Source: Candidatus Zixiibacteriota bacterium
GTDB lineage: Bacteria > Zixibacteria > MSB-5A5 > GN15 > FEB-12
Direction of reading: 5' to 3'
Assembly: GCA_040756055.1 (NCBI GenBank)
Contig: JBFLZR010000001.1
Coordinates: 499,849 to 563,848, forward strand
Length of the DNA stretch: 64,000 nucleotides
The first letter of the stretch is position 1, and the number at the start of each line of letters is the position of its first letter. Below, in pieces: positions 21,102-40,460 of the stretch. Made by a program: the position numbers and the translations under genes. The notes beneath the pieces were generated by a model. It ran no database searches and was not told the origin of the DNA. It saw only the letters and a program-made list of their open reading frames with translations.

Positions 21102-21743
21102 ATGAAAGAGCATAAGGCATTCTTTGATACGGCCAGACGTCATCTTTACACGGCATGGTGTGATGACGCCGGTTGTCTGGTGAACCTTGCCGGCGATTAC
21201 GACTATCTCGAGTCGGCCTACTATGTCTCTCAGGATCTGGAGGATCTCGGTCGCGAGGTCCATCCGACCTGCAAGGAGGCTCTCGACGCATACGTGCCGC
21301 CCTTATTTCTGGAGAAATCGAGGCTTCACGGTTTACTCACGCCGGAATTCTATATCAGCAACGGATATTTCGAACCTCCGGTGATAATCGATCCGATCAA
21401 TCCGTTCATGAGTAAGAGTCGCGTCGTTTTAAAACCGGGACGTGAGAAATCTATCGCGAAGTCCATGACGCGCAATTTCACTTATGCGATATGCTGCCAG
21501 GAACTTCCGGCCGACAGCGAGGTCAAATATTTCCGCTCGGTGCTTGGATGGTGCGCTTCGAGTCGTTACCGTGATCTTTCCCGTCAGATTTGGGAGGTGT
21601 TCAGGATTCCGCTGGCGCGGGTGAGAGTGGTTCAGCTGGCTGATGGAAAGATGTTTCTCAGTGATATTTCCCCCTTTCCGTTCGATAAGCTTGGCGCCAG
21701 AGAAATAAAATATCTTCAGGAGCGTATCAGATGGGACGCTTAG
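21102..21743 (+). CDS. RLAN-domain protein (RimK-like ATP-grasp N-terminal domain, stand-alone)
   Basis: The protein matches the RLAN domain, which in most genomes is fused to the N-terminus of a RimK-like ATP-grasp ligase. Visible hallmarks are the entry GDYDYLESAYYVSQDLEDLG and the later HPTCKEALDAYVPPLFLEK. Here the domain is a separate 213-residue protein whose gene overlaps the ATP-grasp gene by 13 bp, so the two products probably form one enzyme. Its own activity is unknown. Four cysteines, including CC in YAICCQELP, are present without a clear metal pattern. The start ATG is preceded by GGGGAGA. Confidence 0.78.
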   Translation: MKEHKAFFDTARRHLYTAWCDDAGCLVNLAGDYDYLESAYYVSQDLEDLGREVHPTCKEALDAYVPPLFLEKSRLHGLLTPEFYISNGYFEPPVIIDPINPFMSKSRVVLKPGREKSIAKSMTRNFTYAICCQELPADSEVKYFRSVLGWCASSRYRDLSRQIWEVFRIPLARVRVVQLADGKMFLSDISPFPFDKLGAREIKYLQERIRWDA

Positions 21744-22615
21744 GTATCTACGTGGAGCGCTATACGATTTCGAGCGCCGACGAGATGAACGCTGTTATGC
21801 GGTTGGCGCAGGTGGCGCGCAAGCTTGGTCATCGGGCCGACTTTCTCTTTCGTCCCGATATGTACAAGATACCTGAGTATGACGCCATACTCATTCGCGC
21901 TCTCACCGATCCGCTCAATTCGGCGTATGTTGCCTCGCGGACGGCGGAGATGCATGGGGTCCGCGTGATTGACGATTCCGATTCGATCAGAATCTGCTGT
22001 GATAAAGTGAATATGTATCGCCATCTGATAGCCGCCAACGTGCCCATGCCGGACACACGTTTTCTGGCGGAATCGGAGTTGACCGAGGCTGTCGGTGAGC
22101 GGTTGCTTGCGGAGTTGGGCTCGCCGCTGGTTTTGAAAGCGCCCCACAGTAGTTTCTCGATGTATGTTGATCGGGCCACCACACCGCGCGAGTTTGTCAG
22201 CATCGGTAAGCGTTTTTTCAGAAGGGCGGACAGAATCGTGGCTCAGCGTTTTGTAAGTTCCAAGTTCGATTGGCGGGTGGGCGTGCTGGGGGGAGAACCC
22301 CTCTACGTATGTCAATACACGATTCCGAAAAAGCGCTGGAAAATTCTCACTTACACCCCCGACGGCCGAACGCTGCATGGTCCGGTCAGGAGTATGCTTC
22401 TTTCCGAGGTAAACCCGCTTCTTTTGAAACGGGCGCTGGAGGCAGCCGCTTCGATCGGCAAGGGATTGTATGGTGTGGACCTCAAGGAAGTCAACGGCGA
22501 CTTTATTGTTATAGAGGTCAACGACAATCCAACTATTATCGCCGGCGATGAAGACCACAAGGCCGGTGAGCTTTATGAGAAGCTGGTGAGATTTCTCATG
22601 CGAGGGAAAGAGTGA
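21731..22615 (+). CDS. RimK-family ATP-grasp ligase
   Basis: ATP-dependent carboxylate-amine ligase of the RimK/GshB type, forming an amide via an acyl phosphate. Visible are the pre-ATP-grasp region (residues 1-95), the strand VLKAPHSSFS that binds ATP, RIVAQRFVSSKFDWRVGVLGGEPLYV, and the metal site IVIEVNDNPTII with the expected Glu and Asn. Length (294 aa) is normal for RimK. It overlaps the RLAN gene and has a GTGA overlap with the GNAT-C39 gene. Whether it adds amino acids to a protein tail, as RimK does, or builds a small peptide is not known. Confidence 0.88.
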   Translation: MGRLGIYVERYTISSADEMNAVMRLAQVARKLGHRADFLFRPDMYKIPEYDAILIRALTDPLNSAYVASRTAEMHGVRVIDDSDSIRICCDKVNMYRHLIAANVPMPDTRFLAESELTEAVGERLLAELGSPLVLKAPHSSFSMYVDRATTPREFVSIGKRFFRRADRIVAQRFVSSKFDWRVGVLGGEPLYVCQYTIPKKRWKILTYTPDGRTLHGPVRSMLLSEVNPLLLKRALEAAASIGKGLYGVDLKEVNGDFIVIEVNDNPTIIAGDEDHKAGELYEKLVRFLMRGKE

Positions 22616-23721
22616 CCACCGTTACCTGTGAAAAAATACGCATTGCCTCGCAGCACGACCTCGATGCTCTGGTGAGTCTGGAGCGGACAGGGTTTGCCAC
22701 TGACAGATTTACCGAAGAGCAAATCGAGTATCTTCTGACGCGGGCGCACGCGATTGTATTCGTGCTTGAATTCGATGGAAAGGTTGTTGGCGGAGCCTAC
22801 ATGCTCTGGCGCCGGGCGCTCGGTGTTGGCCGTCTTTACAATATAGTGACCGACCCTGCTTATCAGGGCAGGGGCTTCGGAGCAAAGCTGCTGGCGGAGT
22901 GTGAGCTTGAGGCGACCCGACGCTATTGCGACCGAATTTCGCTTGAGGTCCGGGTGGATAATCATAACGCTATCAAATTCTATGAGAACCGGGGATACCG
23001 CGCTATCGAGACGCTTCGCGACTACTACGAGGATGGCAGCGCCGGTTTAAAAATGGTCAAACCTCTGCCGCGGCCCGCTACCAGTCAGGTGCGTCTTAAA
23101 GTTCCGTATTTCGCGCAGGGCCTTGACTTCACATGCGGTCCGGCATCTTTGATGATGGCGATGCATCATCTCAGGCCGGATATTCCTCTAAGCCGGACGC
23201 TGGAGTTGAACCTGTGGAAAGAAGCAACGCTCATTTTCATGACTTCCGGAATTGGCGGGACCGGTCCATACGGGTTAGCCCTTTCCGCGGTGAAGCGTGG
23301 TCTGTGGGCGCGGGTGTTGGTGTCGACAGAAAAACCGCCGTTTCTGAAGTCGGTGCGGATCCCGAAAAAGCGCGAGATAATACGCATCGTGCACGAAGAT
23401 ATCAAGGAATCCGCCGTGAATGCCGGGGCCGCTGTGGCCCAGTATGATTTCGCTCTCGATGATATCACCAGCGCCATCTATCGCGGCATGGTGCCGATCA
23501 TGCTGATCTCGACCTATCGTCTAACCGGCGATCGCGCGCCGCACTGGGTGGTAGTCACCGGTTTTGACAAAGACGGTTTTTACATTCACGATCCCGATGT
23601 TGAGTCTTATGGCGGAGATTCATCGAAGGCCCGCAACTTGAAGGTCTCGACGGAAGAGTTCTTTCGGATGAGCCGTTACGGCAAGGACGTCTTCCGCTGT
23701 GCCATCCTTATCGGTCGTTAA
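22612..23721 (+). CDS. GNAT acetyltransferase fused to C39-like cysteine peptidase
   Basis: Residues 1-150 are a GNAT domain of the RimI type (acetyl-CoA loop AYQGRGFGAKLLAECE, then DNHNAIKFYENRGYRAIE). Residues 160-369 are a papain/C39-like domain: catalytic Cys in FTCGPASLMMAMHHL, the His in PHWVVVTGFDKDGFYIHDPD. The GTG start overlaps the ATP-grasp stop. This fusion is known to accompany RLAN/ATP-grasp genes, and the set is thought to synthesise and process a peptide. No small precursor gene is obvious beside it. The C39 part lacks the ABC transporter seen in bacteriocin exporters. Confidence 0.87.
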   Translation: MTTVTCEKIRIASQHDLDALVSLERTGFATDRFTEEQIEYLLTRAHAIVFVLEFDGKVVGGAYMLWRRALGVGRLYNIVTDPAYQGRGFGAKLLAECELEATRRYCDRISLEVRVDNHNAIKFYENRGYRAIETLRDYYEDGSAGLKMVKPLPRPATSQVRLKVPYFAQGLDFTCGPASLMMAMHHLRPDIPLSRTLELNLWKEATLIFMTSGIGGTGPYGLALSAVKRGLWARVLVSTEKPPFLKSVRIPKKREIIRIVHEDIKESAVNAGAAVAQYDFALDDITSAIYRGMVPIMLISTYRLTGDRAPHWVVVTGFDKDGFYIHDPDVESYGGDSSKARNLKVSTEEFFRMSRYGKDVFRCAILIGR

Positions 23722-29931: not shown

Positions 29932-30052
29932 TATAAGGTAAAAAAATAGTTCTGGTTATTGGCGTTTTTCGGCGCAACAACAGGGTAAATTTCGGCGTAT
30001 CAAGAGGATATTTGTTTAAGCAGCAAACCCAGCGAGTAGATTGAGGTATCTG

Positions 30053-32464
30053 ATGAAACTTCGCAATTATGTCGTTATCGCTCTTATTTCTTTGACATTG
30101 ATTCCGTTGGAACTTGCCTGGACGAGGATTTTTTCGGCCGAGTTCTTTTATACTTTCGCTTTTCTGGTGCTTTCGCTGGCCATTCTTGGCCTGGGACTGG
30201 GGGCTCTGGCCTTGCGCCTTTTCAAAGCCCTCGACCGTGACAGCTTTCAGGGTGTCTATCTGGCCCTGGCCGGGTTGTGCTCGCTGGTCGGGCCAATCCT
30301 GGTGTTCAAGCTCGGGCTGGATTTCTCACTAATTTTCACCAGTTGGGCCATGGTGGGCAAGTTGGTGTTGACCGTACTCATTTTGATGTCGTCGTTTTTC
30401 TTCGGCGGGTCCGCTCTGGCTATGCTTTTCAAGCGCAACCACCAGGACATGCCCCGTCTGTACATGGCGGACTTTTTGGGAGCCGGTGTGGGGGTGCTGG
30501 CCGCCATTTGGGCCATGAATTATTTCGGCACGCCGGCAGCATCCTTTTTGATCGCCCTGCCCGTCCTGCTCGCTTCGCTGATTGTAGGTAACACGTGGAC
30601 AAAGGCTCTACCCGTTGTGGTGGCGGTAGCGGTCGTCTGGCTGTATCCATCGGCCGAGAGTCTGCTCGAGATGGAGCGGCAGGAGCGAGCGCCGGTCATT
30701 TACAAGCATTGGGACGCCATGTCCAAGATCAAGGTCTATGATTTCGATGGCAACTATCGGGGTCTGAATATCGACAACGTGGCCAATTCGCCGGTTTATC
30801 CGTTCGATGGCGACTGGAGTCAGGTCAAGCCGGGGGAGACGGATTGGGGCATCAATGTCTCATATTTGATACAGCGGTTCGACTCGTGTGTCTTCCTGTC
30901 GCTTGGCGCCGGCGGGGGCGGCGACGTAATGCAGGCGTTGGCTGAGGGGGCGACCGAGGTCCACGCGGTTGAGGTCAATCCCCACATTAATAGAATGATG
31001 GTTTACGGGGATCCGGACGGTTACCTGCCGCTGTTGCCGCCGCAGAAAGACTCGGCCACTGTTGATTCCACCGGTTCCGACAGCGCCGCTGTCGCGGACG
31101 AAACGGACTCGGCGGTTGCCCAGGCCGAGCCGGAAACAGATTCTTCGGTCACCGAAAACACCCCTCAACCGATCGTTGCCATGCCGGAGTATTCCGGTTA
31201 TCTCTACCATGACCCGCGTGTCAGAGTCATCACTGAGGATGCCCGCGCCTATGTGCGCCGGTTTGAGGACAAATTCGACGTCATCTATTCGCTCAGTTCT
31301 AATTCCTGGGCGGCCCTGGCGTCGGGGGCGTTTGCTCTGGCTGAAAGCTACATTTTCACGACCGAGGCGTTCGTGGACTACTGGCGGTCGCTCACTGATA
31401 GCGGCTTTCTCATGATGGAGCACCAGGTGTACGTGCCCCGTCTGGTTTCGGAGGTGATGGATGCTCTGGATGCCGTCGGGGTGGAGGACCCCGCCTCACA
31501 CTTTGCCGTTTATGACCTGCCGCAGGCGCGTCGGAAGATAATCCTTCTGTCAAAACAGCCCCTGACAGAAGAGGTTCGTTACAAGGCTCTTGGCGAGTTG
31601 ACGCCTGAAAAATTCGAGCTGATTCATCTGCTCTATCCGCCCGCCAATGACTCCCTGAGCGATAACCTGATCAACCGGATTGTCAATGAAGGCTGGGAGA
31701 GTGTTGCTGACTCGGCCCCGGTTGCCATCTCGCCTGTAGACGACGACAGACCCTTCGTAGCCCAGATGGGTCTGTGGCGGAATTTCGACAGAGAGAAGAT
31801 GCAGCGACTGGGGGGGTATGGGGATTTCTACGGTCTGCCTCTTTCTAACCTGATAATGCTGGTCATTCTCGGCGTGATGGTCGTGATTGTCATTCCCATC
31901 AACCTGCTGCCGTATTTTGGAAAGGGCCCCAAGCTCCGGGCGGCTCCGTGGCTTTACTTTTTTGCTATCGGGGTAGCCTTTATGGCGGTGGAGGTAGTAC
32001 TGATCCAGAAGTACGCCCTGCTTATCGGGCCATCGCTCTACAGCATTGTTACTATCCTGCTGACTCTGCTGGTAGCCTCGGGGATTGGCAGCCGGTTCGC
32101 GAAGCGGTTCGGAGATTCTACGGTGTTCATCTTTATTGTCGTCTGGCTGCTTCTGGACGCCTTTGTTTTTAAGTTTATATTTCAGGCCGCGTTTGGTCTG
32201 AACATGCTCCCGAGGATATTGATTTCTGCTGCCTTGATATTCCCCCTTGGCTTCTTTATGGGCATGCCGTTCCCGAAGGGGACCCTCCGGGTGGGCGAGT
32301 TGATCGACTGGGGTTTTGCGGTCAACGGGGTGGCCTCGGTTCTGGGCTCGATCGTCGTGCTGATGATAGCTTTCACCTGGGGTTTCGCTGTTGCGCTGAG
32401 CTTCTCGGCGGCGGTATATTTGGTTGCATATCTATTGATGCGATCCTCGGTGGCGTGGCGGTAG
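30053..32464 (+). CDS. polytopic membrane protein with spermidine-synthase-like methyltransferase-fold domain
   Basis: An N-terminal block of about six membrane helices, a soluble domain related to spermidine synthase, and a C-terminal block of about six to seven helices. The nucleotide-binding region reads CVFLSLGAGGGGDVMQAL with HAVEVNPH as the acidic strand end, and later DDDRPF, typical of membrane-bound SpeE-like proteins. A low-complexity insert rich in Asp, Ser, Ala and Glu (about residues 340-380) interrupts the domain after VNPHINRMM. ATG 30053 follows a GAGG site; a TTG four codons earlier is possible. Polyamine synthesis is not proven for this membrane subgroup. It is divergent from the BlaI gene of locus 2. 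Confidence 0.8.
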   Translation: MKLRNYVVIALISLTLIPLELAWTRIFSAEFFYTFAFLVLSLAILGLGLGALALRLFKALDRDSFQGVYLALAGLCSLVGPILVFKLGLDFSLIFTSWAMVGKLVLTVLILMSSFFFGGSALAMLFKRNHQDMPRLYMADFLGAGVGVLAAIWAMNYFGTPAASFLIALPVLLASLIVGNTWTKALPVVVAVAVVWLYPSAESLLEMERQERAPVIYKHWDAMSKIKVYDFDGNYRGLNIDNVANSPVYPFDGDWSQVKPGETDWGINVSYLIQRFDSCVFLSLGAGGGGDVMQALAEGATEVHAVEVNPHINRMMVYGDPDGYLPLLPPQKDSATVDSTGSDSAAVADETDSAVAQAEPETDSSVTENTPQPIVAMPEYSGYLYHDPRVRVITEDARAYVRRFEDKFDVIYSLSSNSWAALASGAFALAESYIFTTEAFVDYWRSLTDSGFLMMEHQVYVPRLVSEVMDALDAVGVEDPASHFAVYDLPQARRKIILLSKQPLTEEVRYKALGELTPEKFELIHLLYPPANDSLSDNLINRIVNEGWESVADSAPVAISPVDDDRPFVAQMGLWRNFDREKMQRLGGYGDFYGLPLSNLIMLVILGVMVVIVIPINLLPYFGKGPKLRAAPWLYFFAIGVAFMAVEVVLIQKYALLIGPSLYSIVTILLTLLVASGIGSRFAKRFGDSTVFIFIVVWLLLDAFVFKFIFQAAFGLNMLPRILISAALIFPLGFFMGMPFPKGTLRVGELIDWGFAVNGVASVLGSIVVLMIAFTWGFAVALSFSAAVYLVAYLLMRSSVAWR

Positions 32465-32513: not shown

Positions 32514-33662
32514 ATGTTCGACGACCGGCAAGAAAAGCTTGAGGAAATACGAGCACAGGTTCGAGAGTGGGCGATACGCGAATTGACTCCGGTGTCGGAC
32601 CGCTGGGACCGTGAGGTTGAGCCAAAATTCCCCGGCGAATTGTATTGTCGAATGGGCGAGTTGGGGTTCATTGGATTTAACAGTCCGGTGGAATACGGTG
32701 GTCAGGGAAAGTCCAATACCGAGTTCGCGGCCGTCATCGAAGAATTGGGCTATCACGACGTTGCTTTTGCAGTGATGTGCGGAATTGGCAGGTTGTTCAC
32801 GTACCCACTACTCAGGTGGGGGGCCGACCACCTGAAGACCCGGTACGTTGCCGATTGCGTGAGCGGAAGGCGAGTCTGTGCCTTTGCTTTGTCGGAGCCG
32901 GGGGCGGGGTCCGATGCTGCCGGCCTTCAGACAGTAGCCCGCACCGACGGCGACGAGTTTGTTATTTACGGCGAAAAAACACTGGTCACCAGCGGTGATG
33001 CCGCCGAGGTGGTCCTCCTGTTCTGCCGGGTGGAAGGCTACCGCAAGATATCGGCCTTTGTCGTCGACACCGGACAACCGGGATGGAAAGCCAGGGCGCT
33101 GGAACGCAAACTTGGCATTCGAGCGAGCACGACCGCGCATCTGACTCTGGACGGAGTTCGGACTCCTGCCGTCAATCTGGTCGGAAATTTCGACGATGGA
33201 TTCAAGATCGCGATGGCTACGCTCGACGGCGCCCGGATCAGTGTTGCCGCCCAGGGCGTCGGAGTCGCTCGACGGGCGCTGGACGAATCGGTGCGGTACG
33301 CCAAAAAGCGCCACGCCTTCGGCGCCCCTATTGCCAAACTTCAGGCCATTCAGTGGATGATCGCCGACATGGCCACGCGGCTGGAGGCGGCCCGACTGCT
33401 CACCTACCGGGCCGCACACCTCCAGGACCGGGGCGAGTCGGTCTCGCTGGCGGCTGCCCAGGCCAAACTGTTCGCGGCCGAGACAGCCAATTTTTGTGTC
33501 GACAGGGCCGTGCAGATACACGGTGGCTATGGTTTTATCGGCGAATTCTCCCCGGTCGAGAAGCTTTACCGGGATCAGCGGTTCCTTCAGATAGGGGAGG
33601 GGACCTCGGAAATACAGCGAATGGTCATTGCGAGAACGATTCTCGACGGCTCCGGCAACTGA
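32514..33662 (+). CDS. acyl-CoA dehydrogenase
   Basis: FAD-dependent enzyme that introduces a 2,3 double bond into acyl-CoA thioesters. Normal length (382 aa) and domain order. Visible motifs are CAFALSEPGAGSDAAGLQTVA, the DGVRTPA segment, and QIHGGYGFIGEFSPVEKLYRDQRFLQIGEGTSEIQ near the C-terminus. The usual catalytic base region near the end has GEGTSEIQ with E in the expected family place. A strong GGAGGG site precedes the ATG. No electron-transfer flavoprotein or other beta-oxidation genes are nearby. The TetR gene downstream is a plausible regulator of fatty-acid or acyl-CoA metabolism. Confidence 0.92.
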   Translation: MFDDRQEKLEEIRAQVREWAIRELTPVSDRWDREVEPKFPGELYCRMGELGFIGFNSPVEYGGQGKSNTEFAAVIEELGYHDVAFAVMCGIGRLFTYPLLRWGADHLKTRYVADCVSGRRVCAFALSEPGAGSDAAGLQTVARTDGDEFVIYGEKTLVTSGDAAEVVLLFCRVEGYRKISAFVVDTGQPGWKARALERKLGIRASTTAHLTLDGVRTPAVNLVGNFDDGFKIAMATLDGARISVAAQGVGVARRALDESVRYAKKRHAFGAPIAKLQAIQWMIADMATRLEAARLLTYRAAHLQDRGESVSLAAAQAKLFAAETANFCVDRAVQIHGGYGFIGEFSPVEKLYRDQRFLQIGEGTSEIQRMVIARTILDGSGN

Positions 33663-33749: not shown

Positions 33750-33780
33750 CGTCAAATATGACGATAATGTCGAAAACGAC
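33750..33780. promoter_or_regulatory. tandem palindromes upstream of the TetR gene
   Basis: CGTCA-AATA-TGACG (33750-33763) and GTCG-AAAA-CGAC (33769-33780) lie 14-44 bp before the TetR ATG. Position and symmetry suggest autoregulatory TetR sites. They follow an unusual A-rich run around 33710-33737. Confidence 0.5.
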
Positions 33781-33793
33781 GATATAGTCCGAA

Positions 33794-34471
33794 ATGGAAG
33801 CTGTTTTGGTAGAAAGCAAATTGAAAGCGAGGCGGGGGCAGTCGCGTCACCAGCGTCGCTTCAACCGGACCCGGGCCAAGTTAATCGAGGCCGCCCGGGC
33901 GGTGTTTGTCGAGAAGGGTATCGATCGAACCACTGTCGACGACATCACCAAACGGGCCGATGTTGGCCGGGGTACGTTTTACTATCATTTTGAAAGTATT
34001 GGCGATCTTGCCAGCGAGATCATAAAAGAGATGCTTGCCGAGCTGGTGACCGCCATTGAAAATAAATGCCATGATCAGAATGAGTTGGCCGATGTACTTG
34101 ATGCAATGATAGGGGTCCATCTGGAGTTCTTCAGTCAGCGTTGGGAAGACTTTGTGCTGTTCTACCTGGGTCGTGCCGATCTGACGTTGGTTGAAAGCTA
34201 TGAAGGTATCGAGACACCGTTCATAGACTACCTCAATTGTATCGAGAATCTGGTCGATTCAGCAATATCACAGCCGATCCCCAGGCCGATGCTGCGCCGG
34301 TTGGCGTGTGCCGTAGCCGGTTTCATTTCCGGTTACTACTCTTTTGCGGTCATCGCGTCCGAGGGTGAGGATGTCGACAAACCTTTTATGTCGTTAAGGA
34401 GCGCGTTTGTCGCCAGTTTGGCCCGGTTTATCAAAGAGGCTATTCCGGACAAGAGGAAGAAGCGGCATTAG
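33794..34471 (+). CDS. TetR/AcrR-family transcriptional regulator
   Basis: An N-terminal helix-turn-helix (residues about 23-75) reads TRAKLIEAARAVFVEKGIDRTTVDDITKRADVGRGTFYYHFESIGDL, here described in two parts: the first helices and the recognition segment GRGTFYYHF. The ligand-binding helical domain (80-215) is not specific to a known ligand class. The N-terminus carries an extra basic stretch (KLKARRGQSRHQRRFNRTR). The tandem palindromes just upstream are the candidate autoregulatory sites. It follows an acyl-CoA dehydrogenase gene on the same strand after 131 bp, and precedes the SpeD-like operon by about 217 bp; that gap shows no clear signal. Confidence 0.88.
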   Translation: MEAVLVESKLKARRGQSRHQRRFNRTRAKLIEAARAVFVEKGIDRTTVDDITKRADVGRGTFYYHFESIGDLASEIIKEMLAELVTAIENKCHDQNELADVLDAMIGVHLEFFSQRWEDFVLFYLGRADLTLVESYEGIETPFIDYLNCIENLVDSAISQPIPRPMLRRLACAVAGFISGYYSFAVIASEGEDVDKPFMSLRSAFVASLARFIKEAIPDKRKKRH

Positions 34472-34688: not shown

Positions 34689-35138
34689 GTGAAAACAGTC
34701 TTCAAACCGGGGCAGGCCGCTGAAGGTGCAGTAAGCCGGCTCACTGCCTACAATGAACTGGGTAACGTAAGCGCCCACGATGTTGAAAACGCCTGGGGTC
34801 TGGCGTGCAGTTTCGATATCTATGACTGCAATCCCGATACGATTCGAGATGCGGACAAGATAAAACAATTCGTATACGAGCTGTGCGATCTGATAGCCAT
34901 GAAACGATTCGGCGAGTGTCAAGTTGTGAATTTCGGGGAGGACGAGCGCGTGGCCGGCTTTTCCATGGTTCAGCTCATTGAAACATCGTTGATTTCGGCT
35001 CACTTTGCAAACCAGAGCAACGTGACCTACCTGGATGTATTCAGTTGCAAACCCTACGATCCGGCGGTGGTTGAGAAATTCGCCACCGAGTTTTTCGGCG
35101 GTTCGCACTGCCTCACGCATGTGAACCTGAGGAAATAA
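34689..35138 (+). CDS. SpeD-like pyruvoyl-dependent decarboxylase homologue (atypical)
   Basis: Related to class 1b S-adenosylmethionine decarboxylase. Relative to the Thermotoga enzyme, the self-cleavage serine (S100), the His five residues on (H105) and the Cys twenty residues on (C120 in LDVFSCKPYDP) are all conserved at exact spacing. The residues around them are not: the family ESH...HTWPE reads TSL...HFANQ here. The N-terminal extension of about 35 residues is also unusual. Altered SpeD proteins are reported to decarboxylate ornithine or arginine instead of AdoMet, so the substrate is open. Start is GTG 34689 with a weak GGAG. Two bases separate it from the next gene of the operon. Confidence 0.72.
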   Translation: MKTVFKPGQAAEGAVSRLTAYNELGNVSAHDVENAWGLACSFDIYDCNPDTIRDADKIKQFVYELCDLIAMKRFGECQVVNFGEDERVAGFSMVQLIETSLISAHFANQSNVTYLDVFSCKPYDPAVVEKFATEFFGGSHCLTHVNLRK

Positions 35139-35140
35139 CG

Positions 35141-36130
35141 ATGCGCCGGATATCGGTTGTTTCGGATATTGACGAGTGCCAGGATATCTGGCGTAAGGCG
35201 ATGCCGCAGGAATTTCTTTCGGATCTGTGGGATGTGCGCGGTGCTTTTCACAGGCACTACAATCACCGTCCGCACTTTGTCGTCTGTCATGATGGCGGCG
35301 AGATTTGCGGTCTTCTTCCGCTGGCTTTCAACGAAGAAACCGGGTCGCTCCAATATTTTCCGGGCGAGACCTGGCACGGGAAGACCTGGCTGGAGCAGAA
35401 CCGCATAATTGCCGGTGACAGGTATATCATGAAACGTTTGCTGGCGCGCGCCGGGGACAGTTACAACATTCGCTATGTACGTCAGTCGGGGAATCTTCTG
35501 GGAAATTCTCCGGTAGTTGACGAGGTCGGTTATTTCTTTTTGCCCCCGAAGTACGATTTCGATATGCAGAAGTATTTCGAGGAGTTCTCCCACAAGACGG
35601 CCAAGCGGCTGAAGAGAGAGCTGATCGAGTGGGAGTCGCGGGGGGTCTCGTACCGGTACGATGACATGGCCGATTTCGAGACTCTGGTTGCCATGAGCTT
35701 GCAGTCGTACGGCGAGGATTCGTACTTTTTCGATCCGAGATTTCTCAGGAGTTTCCGCAGCCTGTTGGGCCTGCTCAAAGCGAGGGGCTGGCTGCGAATC
35801 ACGACGGTGCTGGTTGAAGGCAGACCGGCCGCTATTGATATGGGAAGCACCTATAATGGTACCTATACGCTTCTGGCGGGCGGGACCAACCAGGAGTTTC
35901 GTGGCATCGCCAAACTGATCAACATTCATCACATGAGTTGGTCTTGCGAGAAGCGGTTTGATCGCGTGGATTTTCTCTGTGGCGATTTCAACTGGAAGCC
36001 GCAGTTCCATCTGACACCCCAGCCGCTGTATCTGCTGGCTAATGATGTTAGAGCGGAAGTCGCGATAGAGACGGTGGACAGTCTGTCGTGGAAGACAGCG
36101 ACCGCGGGCGCGAGCGTCAGGAGCATGTAA
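35141..36130 (+). CDS. CelD/BcsL-type GNAT acyltransferase
   Basis: Acyltransferase of the Acetyltransf_6 (CelD, FemAB-like) type, which transfers acyl or aminoacyl groups. The central FSHKTAKRLKRELIEWESRG helix and the later GGTNQEFRGIAKLINIHHM and FDRVDFLCGDFNWKPQF segments match the family pattern in which a GxxLL-type helix is followed by DFLxGD. Length 329 aa is normal. It lies between the SpeD-like gene (2 bp) and the ATP-grasp gene (1 bp), so it belongs to the same transcript. A role in acylating the amine made by the decarboxylases is inference. Confidence 0.75.
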   Translation: MRRISVVSDIDECQDIWRKAMPQEFLSDLWDVRGAFHRHYNHRPHFVVCHDGGEICGLLPLAFNEETGSLQYFPGETWHGKTWLEQNRIIAGDRYIMKRLLARAGDSYNIRYVRQSGNLLGNSPVVDEVGYFFLPPKYDFDMQKYFEEFSHKTAKRLKRELIEWESRGVSYRYDDMADFETLVAMSLQSYGEDSYFFDPRFLRSFRSLLGLLKARGWLRITTVLVEGRPAAIDMGSTYNGTYTLLAGGTNQEFRGIAKLINIHHMSWSCEKRFDRVDFLCGDFNWKPQFHLTPQPLYLLANDVRAEVAIETVDSLSWKTATAGASVRSM

Positions 36131-36131
36131 C

Positions 36132-37487
36132 ATGACTGACTTTCGCACGCTGGTAGTCGGCACCACCGCCGACTATATAGCCATGCTCGGCGAGCGCTTT
36201 CCCGGTCGGGTGCTGTTTGTCACCGATAAGTCACAGGCGGTGCGTCGCGAGATGCCCGAACTGGATAGCCGCACTCAAATTCTTCTGGACCTTTCCGTAA
36301 CCAAGAGAGTGATTCGGTCGATCGAGCGTCACCTGGAGCAATGGAATATCAAGCTCCGAGGTGTAGCCTGCTATGATTGCGAGTGGCTGGTGCTGGCCGC
36401 GGAGATCGCCAGACATTTCGCACTCGAGTATCCTTCCGCCGAATCAGTCGCCCTTTGTCGTAACAAGATGGCCTCTAAACAGCGGTGGCTGGACGCGGGT
36501 CTGCTCTGCCCGCGGGCATCGATTGTATCTTCACCGCAACAGGCAGCCGGGTTCGCTTCCGAGGTCAATGCCCCGGTCGTCTTGAAGCCGCTGTCCGGTA
36601 GCGGCAGCGAATTGACATTTGTATGCGAAGACCCCGCGACGGCATCGAGGATGTATCAAGTTGTCGATAAAGGTCTGCGCGAACGGATCGATTTGCCGAT
36701 GTTTATGCCCGTAGTGATCGAGGGGCGGCAGTCGGGAGCGCCGCAGGAGATTGTGGCCGAAGAATTCGTGGCGGGAAGTGAGTACAGTTGCGACGTCTTT
36801 ATCGACGGTGACGAAGTTGTAATTATCAGGTTTGCCGAGAAACTGCCCCGTCCGGCTCCGCCCTTTGGAATAACTATGGCCTATCTGGTCCCTGGTCGGA
36901 TGCCCGAAAAAGTGAGTGAGGCTGAGCTCAGAGATATCCTTTTCATAGCCGGGCGGTCGCTGGGATTGAGGCGGTCGCTCTTTATGGCGGATTTTATCGT
37001 GCGCAACGGCCGGGTGTTTCTCTTGGAACTGACCCCGCGGATCGGCGGCGACTGTCTGCCGTATCTCATTAAGCAGAGTTGCGGACTTGATATGCTCGGC
37101 GTGGCTCTTGATGTTGCTGAACAGCGTCCGCTGATTGTTCCCGAGGCGCCGCTGTGGAAGCAGCTTGTTGGCCTGCGTCTGTTCGCCGATAAAGGCGGCG
37201 TGATAAAAAAGATGGATAGCAGCCGTATTGAAAAGGATCGGCGGGTTCAGGAAGTTTATTTCAAAAGACTGGCAGGTGATGGCATAACGTTGCCGCCGAA
37301 GGATTATGATACGTGGATTCTCGGGCACGTGATATTTCAGCCGGACTCAATATCGAATTTCGATTTGGAGGGAGGGGAGATCGCGGCAAAACTCAAAGTG
37401 CGAATGACGAGACATTATGATGACAAGAAACCCGGAAGAAGCGATGAAGATAGCCGGGCTGCTCAAGAGGCAAACACCACAACTTGA
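36132..37487 (+). CDS. ATP-grasp carboxylate-amine ligase
   Basis: Makes amide or peptide bonds with ATP. The pre-ATP-grasp domain spans about 1-125. The ATP-binding strand reads APVVLKPLSGSGSELTFV, the adenine/hinge region IVAEEFVAGSEYSCDVFI, and the metal-binding end FLLELTPRIGGD replaces the commoner ExNPR. A C-terminal extension of about 130 residues follows and includes VYFKRLAGDGITL. Length 451 aa is typical of amino-acid ligases such as those making dipeptides or siderophore-like amides. Its 3' end overlaps the next gene by about 44 bp, indicating coupled translation. Confidence 0.85.
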   Translation: MTDFRTLVVGTTADYIAMLGERFPGRVLFVTDKSQAVRREMPELDSRTQILLDLSVTKRVIRSIERHLEQWNIKLRGVACYDCEWLVLAAEIARHFALEYPSAESVALCRNKMASKQRWLDAGLLCPRASIVSSPQQAAGFASEVNAPVVLKPLSGSGSELTFVCEDPATASRMYQVVDKGLRERIDLPMFMPVVIEGRQSGAPQEIVAEEFVAGSEYSCDVFIDGDEVVIIRFAEKLPRPAPPFGITMAYLVPGRMPEKVSEAELRDILFIAGRSLGLRRSLFMADFIVRNGRVFLLELTPRIGGDCLPYLIKQSCGLDMLGVALDVAEQRPLIVPEAPLWKQLVGLRLFADKGGVIKKMDSSRIEKDRRVQEVYFKRLAGDGITLPPKDYDTWILGHVIFQPDSISNFDLEGGEIAAKLKVRMTRHYDDKKPGRSDEDSRAAQEANTTT

Positions 37488-38775
37488 CAGCGGCGAGCTA
37501 CGGAGTTTTGTCAGTAGCTTCATAGACAGACGCCAATCATTTCTCGAGACTGTCCTGAAGCACGGATCTCCACTCTATGTTTTGGACGAGGCCGCCCTGC
37601 TGAATCGTGCCCGCCAGTTCAAGACGGCTTTCGCGAGCGTTTTATCGAGCGTGAAGGTGTTCTATGCGGTCAAGAGCAACAGCCATCCCGCGGTGGCGCG
37701 GGCCGTAGTGCGTGCCGGCTGCGGACTTGATGTATCGAGCGGACTGGAATTGGGAGCGGCTCTGGAAACCGACGCTGAGGAAATCATTTTCAGCGGACCC
37801 GGTAAGATGGACTCCGAGCTTCACCTGGCGGTTCAAAACAATCAGCGCGTCACGGTTTTGATGGACAGTTTCGGCGAGCTGCAGAAGCTTGAAAAGGTAG
37901 CTGTCGGTCAGGGCAAGTCAATCAGGGCTGGTGTTCGTCTGACTACCGATGAGAGCGGTATCTGGCGGAAATTCGGAATTCCGCTTTCACAGTTATCGCG
38001 GTTTTTCGCCGAGGCCGACAAATGCCGGCATGTAGAGCTGTCAGGGCTGCAGTTTCATCTTAGCTGGAATCTCAATCCCGATAAGTACGTGGTCTTCATA
38101 GTCAGTCTCGGCTCAGCGCTTCGCGGCCTCGAGAGAAGTTACAGACAGGCGATCAAGTTTCTTGATATTGGCGGAGGGTACTGGCCGCCGCAGGGAGAAT
38201 GGCTGCAAGCCGCGGCTACTCCTGAAGGAGTGCTGCGTCAGACGCTTCTTCAGACATCCGGCAATACATCGGACCACTACAAGTACGCATCGGTGACAAT
38301 CGATGACTTCGCCAACCACATCGCGCAGGCCCTGAAGAAACAGATTCCCGATGATATGTCATACACGGTTTACACGGAACCGGGAAGATGGCTGTCCAAC
38401 GAGGCGATGCACATCCTGCTGACGGTAGTGGACCGCAAGGCGGCCGATGTGATTATCACCGACGGCGGCACCCATGCCGTAGGCTGGGAGCGGTTTGAAT
38501 CCGACTATTTCCCGATCATTAATCTCTCCCGACCATCGCTATCCGAGAAAGAATGTCTGATTGCGGGGTCGCTTTGTACTCCGCATGACATATGGGGATA
38601 TACGTGCTTTGGCGATGATGTTCAGGTTGGAGATGTTCTGCTGGTTCCCAATCAGGGAGCCTACACTTACAGCCTTCGTCAGAATTTCATAAAGCCGCTA
38701 CCGGAGGTTGTTGAGCTTGTTAACGTGGAGTCCGGGGTTCTGCTCCCGAGCGCCACGAGAAAGCCAGGTAGTTGA
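37444..38775 (+). CDS. PLP-dependent fold-III decarboxylase (LysA/ODC/NspC family)
   Basis: Alanine-racemase-fold decarboxylase acting on a diamino or polyamine-related carboxylate. The PLP lysine lies in VFYAVKSNSHP; the ring-stacking His in LQFHLSWN; the phosphate loop FLDIGGGYWPP; TEPGRWLSNEA binds PLP phosphate; and the catalytic Cys from the partner subunit is in GSLCTPHDIWG. That last motif differs from both CESGD of diaminopimelate decarboxylase and CDGLD of ornithine decarboxylase, so the substrate is unclear. ATG 37444 has GGAAG at good spacing; ATG 37417 adds nine residues. It overlaps the ATP-grasp gene. Confidence 0.82.
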   Translation: MKIAGLLKRQTPQLDSGELRSFVSSFIDRRQSFLETVLKHGSPLYVLDEAALLNRARQFKTAFASVLSSVKVFYAVKSNSHPAVARAVVRAGCGLDVSSGLELGAALETDAEEIIFSGPGKMDSELHLAVQNNQRVTVLMDSFGELQKLEKVAVGQGKSIRAGVRLTTDESGIWRKFGIPLSQLSRFFAEADKCRHVELSGLQFHLSWNLNPDKYVVFIVSLGSALRGLERSYRQAIKFLDIGGGYWPPQGEWLQAAATPEGVLRQTLLQTSGNTSDHYKYASVTIDDFANHIAQALKKQIPDDMSYTVYTEPGRWLSNEAMHILLTVVDRKAADVIITDGGTHAVGWERFESDYFPIINLSRPSLSEKECLIAGSLCTPHDIWGYTCFGDDVQVGDVLLVPNQGAYTYSLRQNFIKPLPEVVELVNVESGVLLPSATRKPGS

Positions 38776-38801
38776 TTAGCTAGGTTTGGCAGAGGCCTCA
38801 A

Positions 38802-40229
38802 ATGATTGTCAACGGAAGCGGAGCCGGCACAAGTTCTTCCGGCACCCCCAAGCCCAATAGTCGCTTACAACTGCGGTACGTTTCTCGCGAGGCGGCATAT
38901 GCGCAGGTTTTCATATCTCTGACCGGGGGTGCATTTCTTACCGGTCTGGCGCTGTTTCTTGGCGCCTCGGATTTCGAAATAGGTCTCGTGACGGCATTGC
39001 CTTTTATCGCTCAGATCGCACAACTTCTTTCTCCCTGGCTGATGCCATTTCTGGGTGGACGCAAAGGCATCACGGTCCTGGGTCTTACAATAGGTCGCTT
39101 GGTTTGGTTGCCGCTAATACCCGCCCTGTTTTTTCCGGGGGCGTGGCGTTTGTATCTTCTGTTCGCGGTTCTTCTGGTTTCGAGTATTGCGACTATGGCA
39201 GCAACGCCGTCGTGGTTTTCCTGGATGGCTGATATTGTCCCGCGCAGAATTCGGGGGAGATTCTTCGGGACGCGAAGCGCCGTGATCGCGATCTCAACTC
39301 TCATAGCCACAGTGGGTGGGAGTGTCGCTCTGGATCTGTTTGTGGTTCGCGACAAGGATGCTTCGGGCTATGGTCTTTTGTTGGCCCTCGCTTTGATGAC
39401 CGGTTTCTGGGCATTGCGGGTAATGAAGCGATTGCCCGATTCCAGCAAACCGATCGAGCCCTCAAGATACGATCTCCAGGAGATGCTTCGGCCGCTGTCC
39501 GATAAAAAATTTCGAAGCCTTCTCAAGGTCTTTTTCTCCTGGAATCTCTCCATCGGTCTGTCGGCCGGCTTTTTTGCTCCCCACATGCTGCTCAATCTCA
39601 AAATGAGTTTTTTCCAGATTGGACTTTATTCGGCGGCCGCGACTATCGTGGCCATCGCGACCAACCGTCCTTGGGGAAAGGTAATTGACCGTTTCGGGCC
39701 CCGAGCTGTTCTGACTGCCTGCGCGGCTGGCATAAGTATGATACCGCTCATCTGGCTTTTCCCCAGGGCAGATTATCTGTGGGTGCTGATTCCGGAAGCG
39801 ATATACTCGGGTTTGTGCTGGACCGGCTTCAACCTGGCCGCGTTTACGATCCCGCTCGACAAGAGTCCGAGGGAAAAGCGTCCGGCATATCTGGCCATGT
39901 TCGCGGTGGTGACCGGCATTGCCTTTTTCATAGGTTCTGTATTGGCCGGATTCATTGCCGACGTTTATGCCGAGATGGCTATAGTCGTTGGGGCACAGGT
40001 ACTGGTCAACTACCACATACTGTTTGTGGTATCGGCGATAATGAGAATGCTTACAGCCGCCATGCTGGCCTCGCTGAGGGGACCGGCCGAAGTCCGGTTG
40101 CCGGTAATGATTCAGCTTATGGGATATGCTGTTTTGAAACGTATGTCTATAAGCCGTCAGCTCGTGCCATTTGCGATAGATGACGGTTCCGATGATGATG
40201 CGGATAATACACAAAATAACCATACGTAA
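38802..40229 (+). CDS. MFS transporter (about 12 membrane segments)
   Basis: Major-facilitator-type transporter with roughly twelve hydrophobic segments in two halves, a cytoplasmic loop near the middle (RLPDSSKPIEPSRYDLQEML) and typical basic loop motifs (RRIRGRFFGTRSA and DRFGPRAVL). Length 475 aa. It starts 26 bp after the decarboxylase gene and ends the run of biosynthetic genes, so export of the pathway product, or uptake of its precursor, is likely. The C-terminus is acidic (DDGSDDDADNTQ). Substrate cannot be read from sequence. Confidence 0.85.
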   Translation: MIVNGSGAGTSSSGTPKPNSRLQLRYVSREAAYAQVFISLTGGAFLTGLALFLGASDFEIGLVTALPFIAQIAQLLSPWLMPFLGGRKGITVLGLTIGRLVWLPLIPALFFPGAWRLYLLFAVLLVSSIATMAATPSWFSWMADIVPRRIRGRFFGTRSAVIAISTLIATVGGSVALDLFVVRDKDASGYGLLLALALMTGFWALRVMKRLPDSSKPIEPSRYDLQEMLRPLSDKKFRSLLKVFFSWNLSIGLSAGFFAPHMLLNLKMSFFQIGLYSAAATIVAIATNRPWGKVIDRFGPRAVLTACAAGISMIPLIWLFPRADYLWVLIPEAIYSGLCWTGFNLAAFTIPLDKSPREKRPAYLAMFAVVTGIAFFIGSVLAGFIADVYAEMAIVVGAQVLVNYHILFVVSAIMRMLTAAMLASLRGPAEVRLPVMIQLMGYAVLKRMSISRQLVPFAIDDGSDDDADNTQNNHT

Positions 40230-40256
40230 GAGAATATCGAACGAGGAGATTCAACA

Positions 40257-40460
40257 ATGAAACAGGAACTGCGGATGTTCAAGTGTCCCAGATGCGGTTC
40301 CCGTAACCTTCAGGTTGCCGATTCAACCAGCGACCGTGAGACACTGATATGCTGTCTGGACTGTGACGCTACCTTCGAAAGACATCAGAAAGGAAAAGAA
40401 AGACGCAAATCAAAACATGACTACGATGACGATTACGGCTCGCAGGGCAAGCGCCGTTAG
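40257..40460 (+). CDS. small zinc-ribbon protein (67 aa)
   Basis: Two CxxC knuckles are visible (FKCPRCGS and CLDCDATFE), as in TFIIS-like or rubredoxin-like zinc ribbons. The C-terminus is highly charged, basic then acidic. The ATG follows an ACGAGGAG ribosome site. It lies 27 bp after the MFS gene and may be its last operon partner. A nucleic-acid or protein-binding adaptor role is possible but unsupported. Confidence 0.75.
   Translation: MKQELRMFKCPRCGSRNLQVADSTSDRETLICCLDCDATFERHQKGKERRKSKHDYDDDYGSQGKRR

Follow-up and report, generated by a model that had tools for sequence, protein, structure and literature searches.

The stretch of DNA analyzed here (the window) comprises 64,000 nucleotides, positions 499849 to 563848 of contig JBFLZR010000001.1 from a Candidatus Zixiibacteriota bacterium whose genome (GCA_040756055.1; 3.3 Mb) is 97.7% complete, and our subject is a compact set of forward-strand genes within it, arranged in the order tetR-A-B-C-D-MFS. 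The first gene of the unit (33794–34471) encodes a TetR-family regulator (Pfam TetR_N, E-value 1.6e-15) and lies downstream of two palindromic operator sites of the form GAC-N6-GTC (33760–33771 and 33778–33789), the starts of which are 18 bp apart. Gene A (34689–35138) encodes a pyruvoyl enzyme resembling S-adenosylmethionine decarboxylase (AdoMetDC; Pfam AdoMet_dc, 2.2e-21), predicted to be of the L-ornithine decarboxylase (SpeDC) type; gene B (35141–36130) encodes a PF13480 tandem-GNAT protein (Acetyltransf_6, 8.5e-22) modeled with a fold like those of FemX and the aminoacyl-tRNA-dependent peptide synthases; and gene C (36132–37487) an ATP-grasp ligase (ATP-grasp_4, 8.5e-11) whose modeled fold is nearest to that of the L-amino-acid ligase BL00235. 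Gene D (37417–38775) encodes an alanine-racemase-fold (AR-fold) pyridoxal 5'-phosphate (PLP) decarboxylase (Orn_Arg_deC_N, 5.4e-33) with a BtrK/SbnH-like GSLCTPHD motif, and the last gene (38802–40229) a major facilitator superfamily (MFS) transporter (MFS_1, 3.7e-23). Genes A and B are separated by 2 bp, B and C by 1 bp, and D and the MFS gene by 26 bp; C and D overlap by 71 bp.

A preliminary description, made from the sequence alone, had named the families of genes A to D and the MFS gene and given their spacings, and the open reading frames (ORFs), Pfam matches, and distances reported here agree with it. It let the set run on to 40460, where the MFS gene stops at 40229, and it left out the tetR gene, which we count in the unit because it is conserved in place and has its own operators. 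Genes A to D form the conserved core; the MFS gene, which the preliminary description had included as a transporter, is accessory.

Conservation and distribution

Among 61 related genomes (own genome included), the same 10 have strong matches to both gene A and gene C, and the tetR-A-B-C-D order is retained around the matches in relatives wherever the contig permits. Searching 132 genomes of the phylum with a profile of gene B gives 15 with a match, and in every one of these gene A is the upstream neighbor of B. A scan of named genomes with a profile of gene A yielded 80 loci, the best 80 of 214 confirmed loci, in which A is followed downstream by B in 74, by C in 66, and by D in 62. (Gene C as a single-protein query had given no match in the collection scan.) Because A and C coincide in this way and B adjoins A in 74 of the 80 loci, the arrangement is far beyond chance, and the operon is real and widespread. 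The proposal in the preliminary description of a single operon with the toolkit of a small amide or polyamine-conjugate pathway, with neighbors conserved together in related genomes, is thus supported.

Twelve operon loci lack C or D; the contig ends too soon in 11 of these, and in the exception, L080, C is incomplete and D is absent although the contig continues. This locus and L078 lie in one genome (CP070689), in which two inverted tetR-A-B copies are about 23 kb apart, the second being the one with the incomplete C. Six of the 80 loci have A without B (L068, L109, L110, L117, L122, and L123), two of them (L109 and L117) with only about 1 kb of downstream sequence. Four of these solo A-like genes (L109, L110, L117, and L123) come from three genomes titled Parcubacteria, Adlerbacteria, and Kaiserbacteria and from one titled only bacterium. 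Ten distant A-like matches (28–33% identity) are in phage records.

The whole four-gene set is found under 11 phylum labels (Zixiibacteriota, Auribacterota, Armatimonadota, Deferribacterota, Planctomycetota, Verrucomicrobiota, Krumholzibacteriota, Thermodesulfobacteriota, Nitrospirota, Omnitrophota, and Sumerlaeota); the records are mostly metagenome assemblies, so individual labels may be wrong, and the labels Myxococcota and Pseudomonadota, carried by vaguely titled metagenome-assembled genomes, were left out of the count. In Lentisphaerota, Eiseniibacteriota, and Hydrogenedentota the first two or three genes are present, followed by the contig end. A complete operon is also present in records titled Desulfobacter vibrioformis DSM 8776, Desulfogranum marinum DSM 2058, and Dethiosulfatarculus sandiegensis SPR. 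We make no claim as to the number of transfers, because the tree of SpeDC sequences is based on few alignment columns and many of its forks are open.

Across the 55 loci with all four genes (window included), pairwise distances among B, C, and D are correlated with Mantel r values of 0.78 to 0.86, and those of A with the others at 0.50 to 0.54; in each case 0 of 500 permutations reach the observed value. Median pairwise identity is highest for A (0.74), followed by D (0.51), B (0.47), and C (0.40). This shows joint inheritance rather than interaction, since shared descent of the hosts would also yield such a correlation. The sets used for co-variation and for the motif counts below exclude four loci that are copies of others (L044, L045, L047, and L052, copies of L034, L043, L033, and L040, respectively), as well as loci whose best match covers less than about 70% (A) or about 80% (B, C, and D) of the window protein.

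Of the 10 genomes with the operon, 4 (the window's own and 3 of the 9 relatives) have an MFS homologue adjoining it; among the 80 named loci one is present in 2, in one of them at only 25% identity. Two genes upstream of tetR were considered as further members and rejected. An acyl-CoA dehydrogenase gene (32514–33662) has no homologue in 11 regions from relatives and one remote homologue in the 80 named loci (L089). Upstream of it, an 807-residue protein (30041–32464) contains a spermidine synthase-like stretch that falls below threshold (Spermine_synth, 16.2 bits against a cut-off of 22.9), and it has no homologue in the 11 relatives' regions or in the 80 named loci.

Signatures and folds of the four enzymes

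The preliminary description drew attention to two decarboxylases of different cofactor type and called the pyruvoyl enzyme SpeD-like. The two are indeed distinguishable, and A is not a canonical SpeD: it scores 27.3 bits with the AdoMetDC model TIGR03330 (equivalog cut-off, 75.65), compared with 140.9 bits for the other SpeD of the same genome, and its residues also differ. According to Li et al. (2023; PMC10407285), AdoMetDC homologues that have turned into ornithine decarboxylases (SpeDC) retain Ser, His, and Cys processing and catalytic residues (Ser63, His68, and Cys83 in Thermotoga maritima numbering) together with diagnostic Gln, Thr, Phe, and Tyr residues. When the same place is aligned in the canonical SpeD (GVVVIAESHISIHTW) and in A (SMVQLIETSLISAHFA), Ser100, His105, and Cys120 of A are in register, whereas Q95, T99, F106, and Y114 are unlike the canonical residues and the AdoMetDC proline is missing. 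The three processing residues are invariant in 10 of 10 operon A proteins aligned with canonical SpeD, and the pattern Q..ETS..S.HF.......Y.D.FSC is present in 81 of 81 A sequences, including the six solo genes. These residues fit an assignment of A as a pyruvoyl ornithine decarboxylase of the SpeDC type rather than a canonical AdoMet decarboxylase.

A second contig of the same genome carries a SpeD gene, a PF02784 AR-fold decarboxylase gene, and a SpeE gene side by side, and because these three lie together, A is probably not the housekeeping source of putrescine. The PF02784 decarboxylase scores best with LysA, below the cut-off, and would be read as an ornithine decarboxylase from its neighbors and its motif; SpeE was typed from a 177-residue piece that falls just below the whole-protein cut-offs and above the Pfam cut-off.

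Neither the A profile nor the B profile reached a solved structure by sequence. An AlphaFold2 model of B (35 sequences; predicted local distance difference test score [pLDDT], 87.7) has the tandem-GNAT fold of the FemX type, and its nearest structures are the aminoacyl-tRNA-dependent peptide synthases Sba18 and Sbb17 (Z, 18.3–18.7; root-mean-square deviation [rmsd], 3.6–3.8; 261–263 residues aligned) and FemX (Z, 17.7–18.3), followed by MprF-type enzymes (Z, 14–15) and coenzyme A (CoA)-dependent tandem GNATs (Z, about 12–14). The preliminary description had B as a CelD-type acyltransferase; because the model matches FemX and the aminoacyl-tRNA-dependent synthases better than the CoA-dependent tandem GNATs, aminoacyl transfer appears more likely than CelD-type acylation. 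Assignment of B as the FemAB protein of XrtA/PEP-CTERM systems (TIGR03019) was rejected, at 18.8 bits against a cut-off of 260.35.

The corresponding model of C (32 sequences; pLDDT, 91.1) is nearest to L-amino-acid ligase BL00235 (3vot; Z, 36.4; rmsd, 3.1; 396 residues aligned; 18% identity), with RizA (Z, 31.0), BacD (about 30), PurT (29.3), and PurK-type enzymes (up to 28.6) next, and C thus resembles, as modeled, an ATP-grasp ligase of the L-amino-acid-ligase kind.

The best solved relatives of the D profile are the N-citrylornithine decarboxylase FslC (7kh2), a LysA (2p3e), BtrK (2j66 and 7ru7), and 6knh, which we take to be SbnH (its record title reads probable diaminopimelate decarboxylase). 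All 10 of the 10 D proteins compared have Lys86, His214, the GGG motif, EPGR (321–324), Cys387, and Asp391, and D is therefore expected to be an active PLP decarboxylase. Its C-terminal motif, GSLCTPHD, is comparable to CTPED in BtrK and CTPKD in 6knh and different from GPICETGD in the LysA 2p3e; CTPxD is found in 59 of 60 D proteins, the remaining one having no such motif in the span searched. D scores below the cut-offs for the diaminopimelate decarboxylase LysA (TIGR01048; 155.2 bits against an equivalog cut-off of 297.9) and the N-citrylornithine decarboxylase FslC (NF041039; 99.9 bits against 500), and it matches carboxynorspermidine decarboxylase weakly (43.3 bits). BtrK, SbnH, and FslC take as substrates amino acids that are attached to another moiety, and by sequence D resembles these decarboxylases of conjugated amino acids.

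Regulators and their sites

Among the 74 operon loci, a TetR gene is present in 30 and a member of a sigma-54 activator family in 27 others; the two are never together, and 17 loci have neither in the DNA examined. The TetR proteins adjoining the operon in relatives are 54–71% identical to that of the window. Of 35 loci with tetR (the window and relatives among them), 34 have GAC-N6-GTC sites upstream of this gene, the exception being L075. The sites number 88, where shuffles would give 1.2, and one site occurs in 34 control stretches inside tetR; as in the sigma-54 and Fur-box scans below, the shuffles preserve single-base content only. This count excludes the four copies listed above and L050, in which the TetR match is below 100 bits. 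There are up to six sites per locus, and their starts are spaced by 18 or 36 bp, with a single 25-bp step. Six operators are present in L040, all in 18-bp steps, and in L037, in steps of 25, 36, 18, 18, and 18 bp; such rows suggest several TetR dimers bound side by side.

In the window's own genome, the tandem operator pattern occurs once, at 33760–33789, and a reversed control pattern occurs three times elsewhere, so it is position and conservation that count for these operators. The tandem pattern is present in 12 of 14 operon-bearing genomes (not in G002 or G048), with one extra site, in G001, inside an ORF. The reversed control is comparably low in number, and we therefore do not claim a wider TetR regulon. 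A scan for sigma-70 promoters returned fewer candidates than in shuffles, and none at tetR.

The sigma-54 activator genes are divergent from A in 24 of 24 loci examined, all 24 products having a GAFTGA or GSFTGA motif, and both of the activators that were typed are of the sigma-54 type by Pfam. In 22 of these 24 loci there is a -24/-12-like site directed towards A that scores 13 to 15 of 15 (shuffle fraction, ≤0.045), compared with 9 to 12 on the opposite strand; L095 and L118 do not fit, the opposite strand scoring better. The check covers 24 of the 27 loci with this activator family, L077, L098, and L119 lying outside it. Control of the same four genes either by TetR or by a sigma-54 activator, two unrelated switches, argues for a conditional, dedicated product.

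A predicted pathway and its alternatives

Since the block is whole under 11 phylum labels, keeps its signature residues, and has two dedicated switches, the four enzymes very probably make something useful. We propose, at about even odds, that the operon is a dedicated route to a small putrescine-containing pseudopeptide that is independent of nonribosomal peptide synthetases (NRPS). Directly in its favor are gene order, conservation, co-occurrence, the signature residues, the models of B and C, and the operator and promoter sites, and from these we infer the chemistry. A would cleave itself at Ser100 to generate the pyruvoyl cofactor, as its signature residues suggest, and then convert L-ornithine to putrescine. 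C would couple an amino acid to an amine, in the simplest case putrescine; the bond would probably be made at a side-chain carboxyl (such as that of Glu or Asp), leaving the alpha-amino acid head free. D is proposed to act after the ligase, because BtrK, SbnH, and FslC use conjugated amino acids; like them it would decarboxylate the free head of the conjugate, and the result would be a polyamine with an amide bond, for example 4-aminobutanoyl- or beta-alanyl-putrescine. B may then add a further amino acid, probably from an aminoacyl-tRNA, onto a free amine, as its fold would allow. From the sites, TetR is predicted to repress from operators 18 bp apart and the sigma-54 activator to turn the operon on in other lineages; the MFS protein may export the product in some genomes.

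The scheme has counterparts in known systems. In butirosin biosynthesis, BtrJ is an ATP-grasp ligase, and BtrJ and BtrK together supply an ATP-grasp ligase and an AR-fold CTPxD decarboxylase for a conjugated amino acid, as in C and D; the operon differs in having no carrier protein gene and in adding SpeDC-like and FemX-like enzymes. FslC (rhizoferrin) and SbnH (staphyloferrin B), which are among the best solved relatives of D, use citryl-amino acid conjugates, but the NRPS-independent siderophore (NIS) synthetases that define their pathways are missing from the genome, and FslC has CMQHD where D has CTPHD. For B, the closest folds are those of Sba18/Sbb17 and FemX (Z, 17.7–18.7), but at about 10% identity. 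A shares with SpeDC the processing and diagnostic residues and the lack of the AdoMetDC proline; as published, SpeDC genes sit in spermidine or homospermidine clusters, unlike A, and the term ATP-grasp is absent from that paper (PMC10407285). The fungal E-64 pathway (PMC12568646) is similar to the operon in that an amino acid is ligated by an ATP-grasp enzyme and an amide is then formed with an amine, no NRPS being involved. It differs in its epoxysuccinate warhead and in its use of an amide bond synthetase; its abstract does not mention a pyruvoyl decarboxylase.

Several observations weigh against the proposal. The SpeDC signature positions of A were assigned by residue order and by contrast with canonical SpeD, from the published description and not by alignment to a validated SpeDC. 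A evolves at a lower rate than the other three genes and tracks them less closely, and because it also occurs without B in six of 80 loci, it can work alone. The identity of B to its nearest folds is about 10%, and fold likeness is no proof of aminoacyl-tRNA use, just as it is no proof of the substrate of C, whose BacD score is hardly above those of PurT and the PurK-type enzymes, with BL00235 alone standing clear. For D, the highest whole-family score is with LysA, and FslC, at the top of its list of relatives, carries CMQHD and not CTPxD. There is no conserved transporter or further partner, so export would not be general.

The preliminary description had suggested a siderophore-like compound, and a siderophore or metallophore pathway akin to those of rhizoferrin, vibrioferrin, and staphyloferrin B, with an FslC/SbnH-group decarboxylase, an ATP-grasp ligase, and an MFS exporter operating without NIS synthetases, would account for FslC being the best solved relative of D, with 6knh near, and for a weak match of the MFS protein to FslB (17.7 bits against a cut-off of 600). 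We consider it very unlikely: the IucA/IucC family (PF04183) has no match in the 97.7%-complete genome, whereas Escherichia coli and Haloferax controls are positive; Fur-box scores upstream of tetR and A are 10 and 9 of 19, equaled by 97% of shuffles; and the best Fur-like site of the region (14 of 19, reached by 1 of 20 shuffles, or 5%) lies inside the MFS gene. Wherever a regulator was identified, it is TetR or a sigma-54 activator; conservation does not extend to the MFS gene; and no receptor is present among the typed neighbors, which are only some of the neighbors. Distinctly unlikely, too, is that the operon provides an ordinary polyamine by another route, with putrescine from A elongated by B, C, and D to a spermidine-like substitute for spermidine. 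A does belong to a polyamine enzyme family, and D has its weak likeness to carboxynorspermidine decarboxylase, but the genome already has SpeD, the PF02784 decarboxylase, and SpeE together, no carboxyspermidine dehydrogenase is among the five genes typed, and control by TetR or sigma-54 activators suggests conditional use.

It is also unlikely that the product is no free small molecule at all, and that the FemX-like B and C instead link a diamine or an amino acid covalently to peptidoglycan or protein. The folds nearest to B include FemX and FemA, which build peptidoglycan bridges; a three-gene cluster encoding an RLAN-domain protein, a RimK-like ATP-grasp protein, and a GNAT–C39 peptidase fusion lies directly downstream of the operon in L033 and L034 (families taken from the window copies); and genes for C39-like peptidases are near the operon in L074, L076, L080, L082, and L104. 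The antibiotic synthases Sba18 and Sbb17 are, however, equally close to B in fold, the fold nearest to C is a ligase of free L-amino acids, the C39 and RimK neighbors are a minority, and the scattered distribution of the operon (15 of 132 genomes) is not that of a housekeeping trait of the cell wall.

More tentatively than the pseudopeptide route itself, we raise the possibility, doubtful as it stands, of a novel class of hybrid polyamine-peptides, which would be built by four kinds of enzyme together: an ornithine decarboxylase of the pyruvoyl type, a PLP decarboxylase specific for conjugates, an ATP-grasp ligase, and a FemX-like enzyme that uses aminoacyl-tRNA. It would be made by many bacteria known mainly from metagenomes, from a four-gene block passed between phyla and placed under two unrelated regulators; one of these, TetR, with an array of as many as six operators spaced mostly by 18 bp, may detect the product, which could be a conditional stress or signaling metabolite.

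A match to a named pathway was looked for, and no description of the operon or its product was found in the open-access literature, where most subscription papers are missing. The kinds of enzyme are known, as are NRPS-independent amide pathways in general; it is their combination that was not found described. A 2009 account of amidoligases by Iyer and colleagues reportedly might mention related neighborhoods. As the preliminary description had said, the block contains no NRPS, polyketide synthase (PKS), or NIS gene, and mining tools keyed to such genes would therefore probably miss it. If the proposed route is correct, SpeDC enzymes gain a role beyond plain polyamine synthesis, and because the whole operon is present in named-strain records, the product can be sought directly.

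The window copy of the three-gene RLAN/RimK/GNAT–C39 cluster is at 21102–23721, 11 kb upstream of the operon, its third gene encoding a GNAT fused to a C39-like peptidase (DUF3335); copies of this third gene also lie near the operon in L041 and L054. The C39-like peptidase genes in other lineages (L074, 2844–3578; L076, 3200–3967; L080, 7553–7921; L082, 12897–13622; L104, 4535–5281) belong to one sequence cluster, typed in L074, L082, and L104, and are upstream of the operon in three loci and downstream in two. Such a peptidase might take part in processing the product or in breaking it down.

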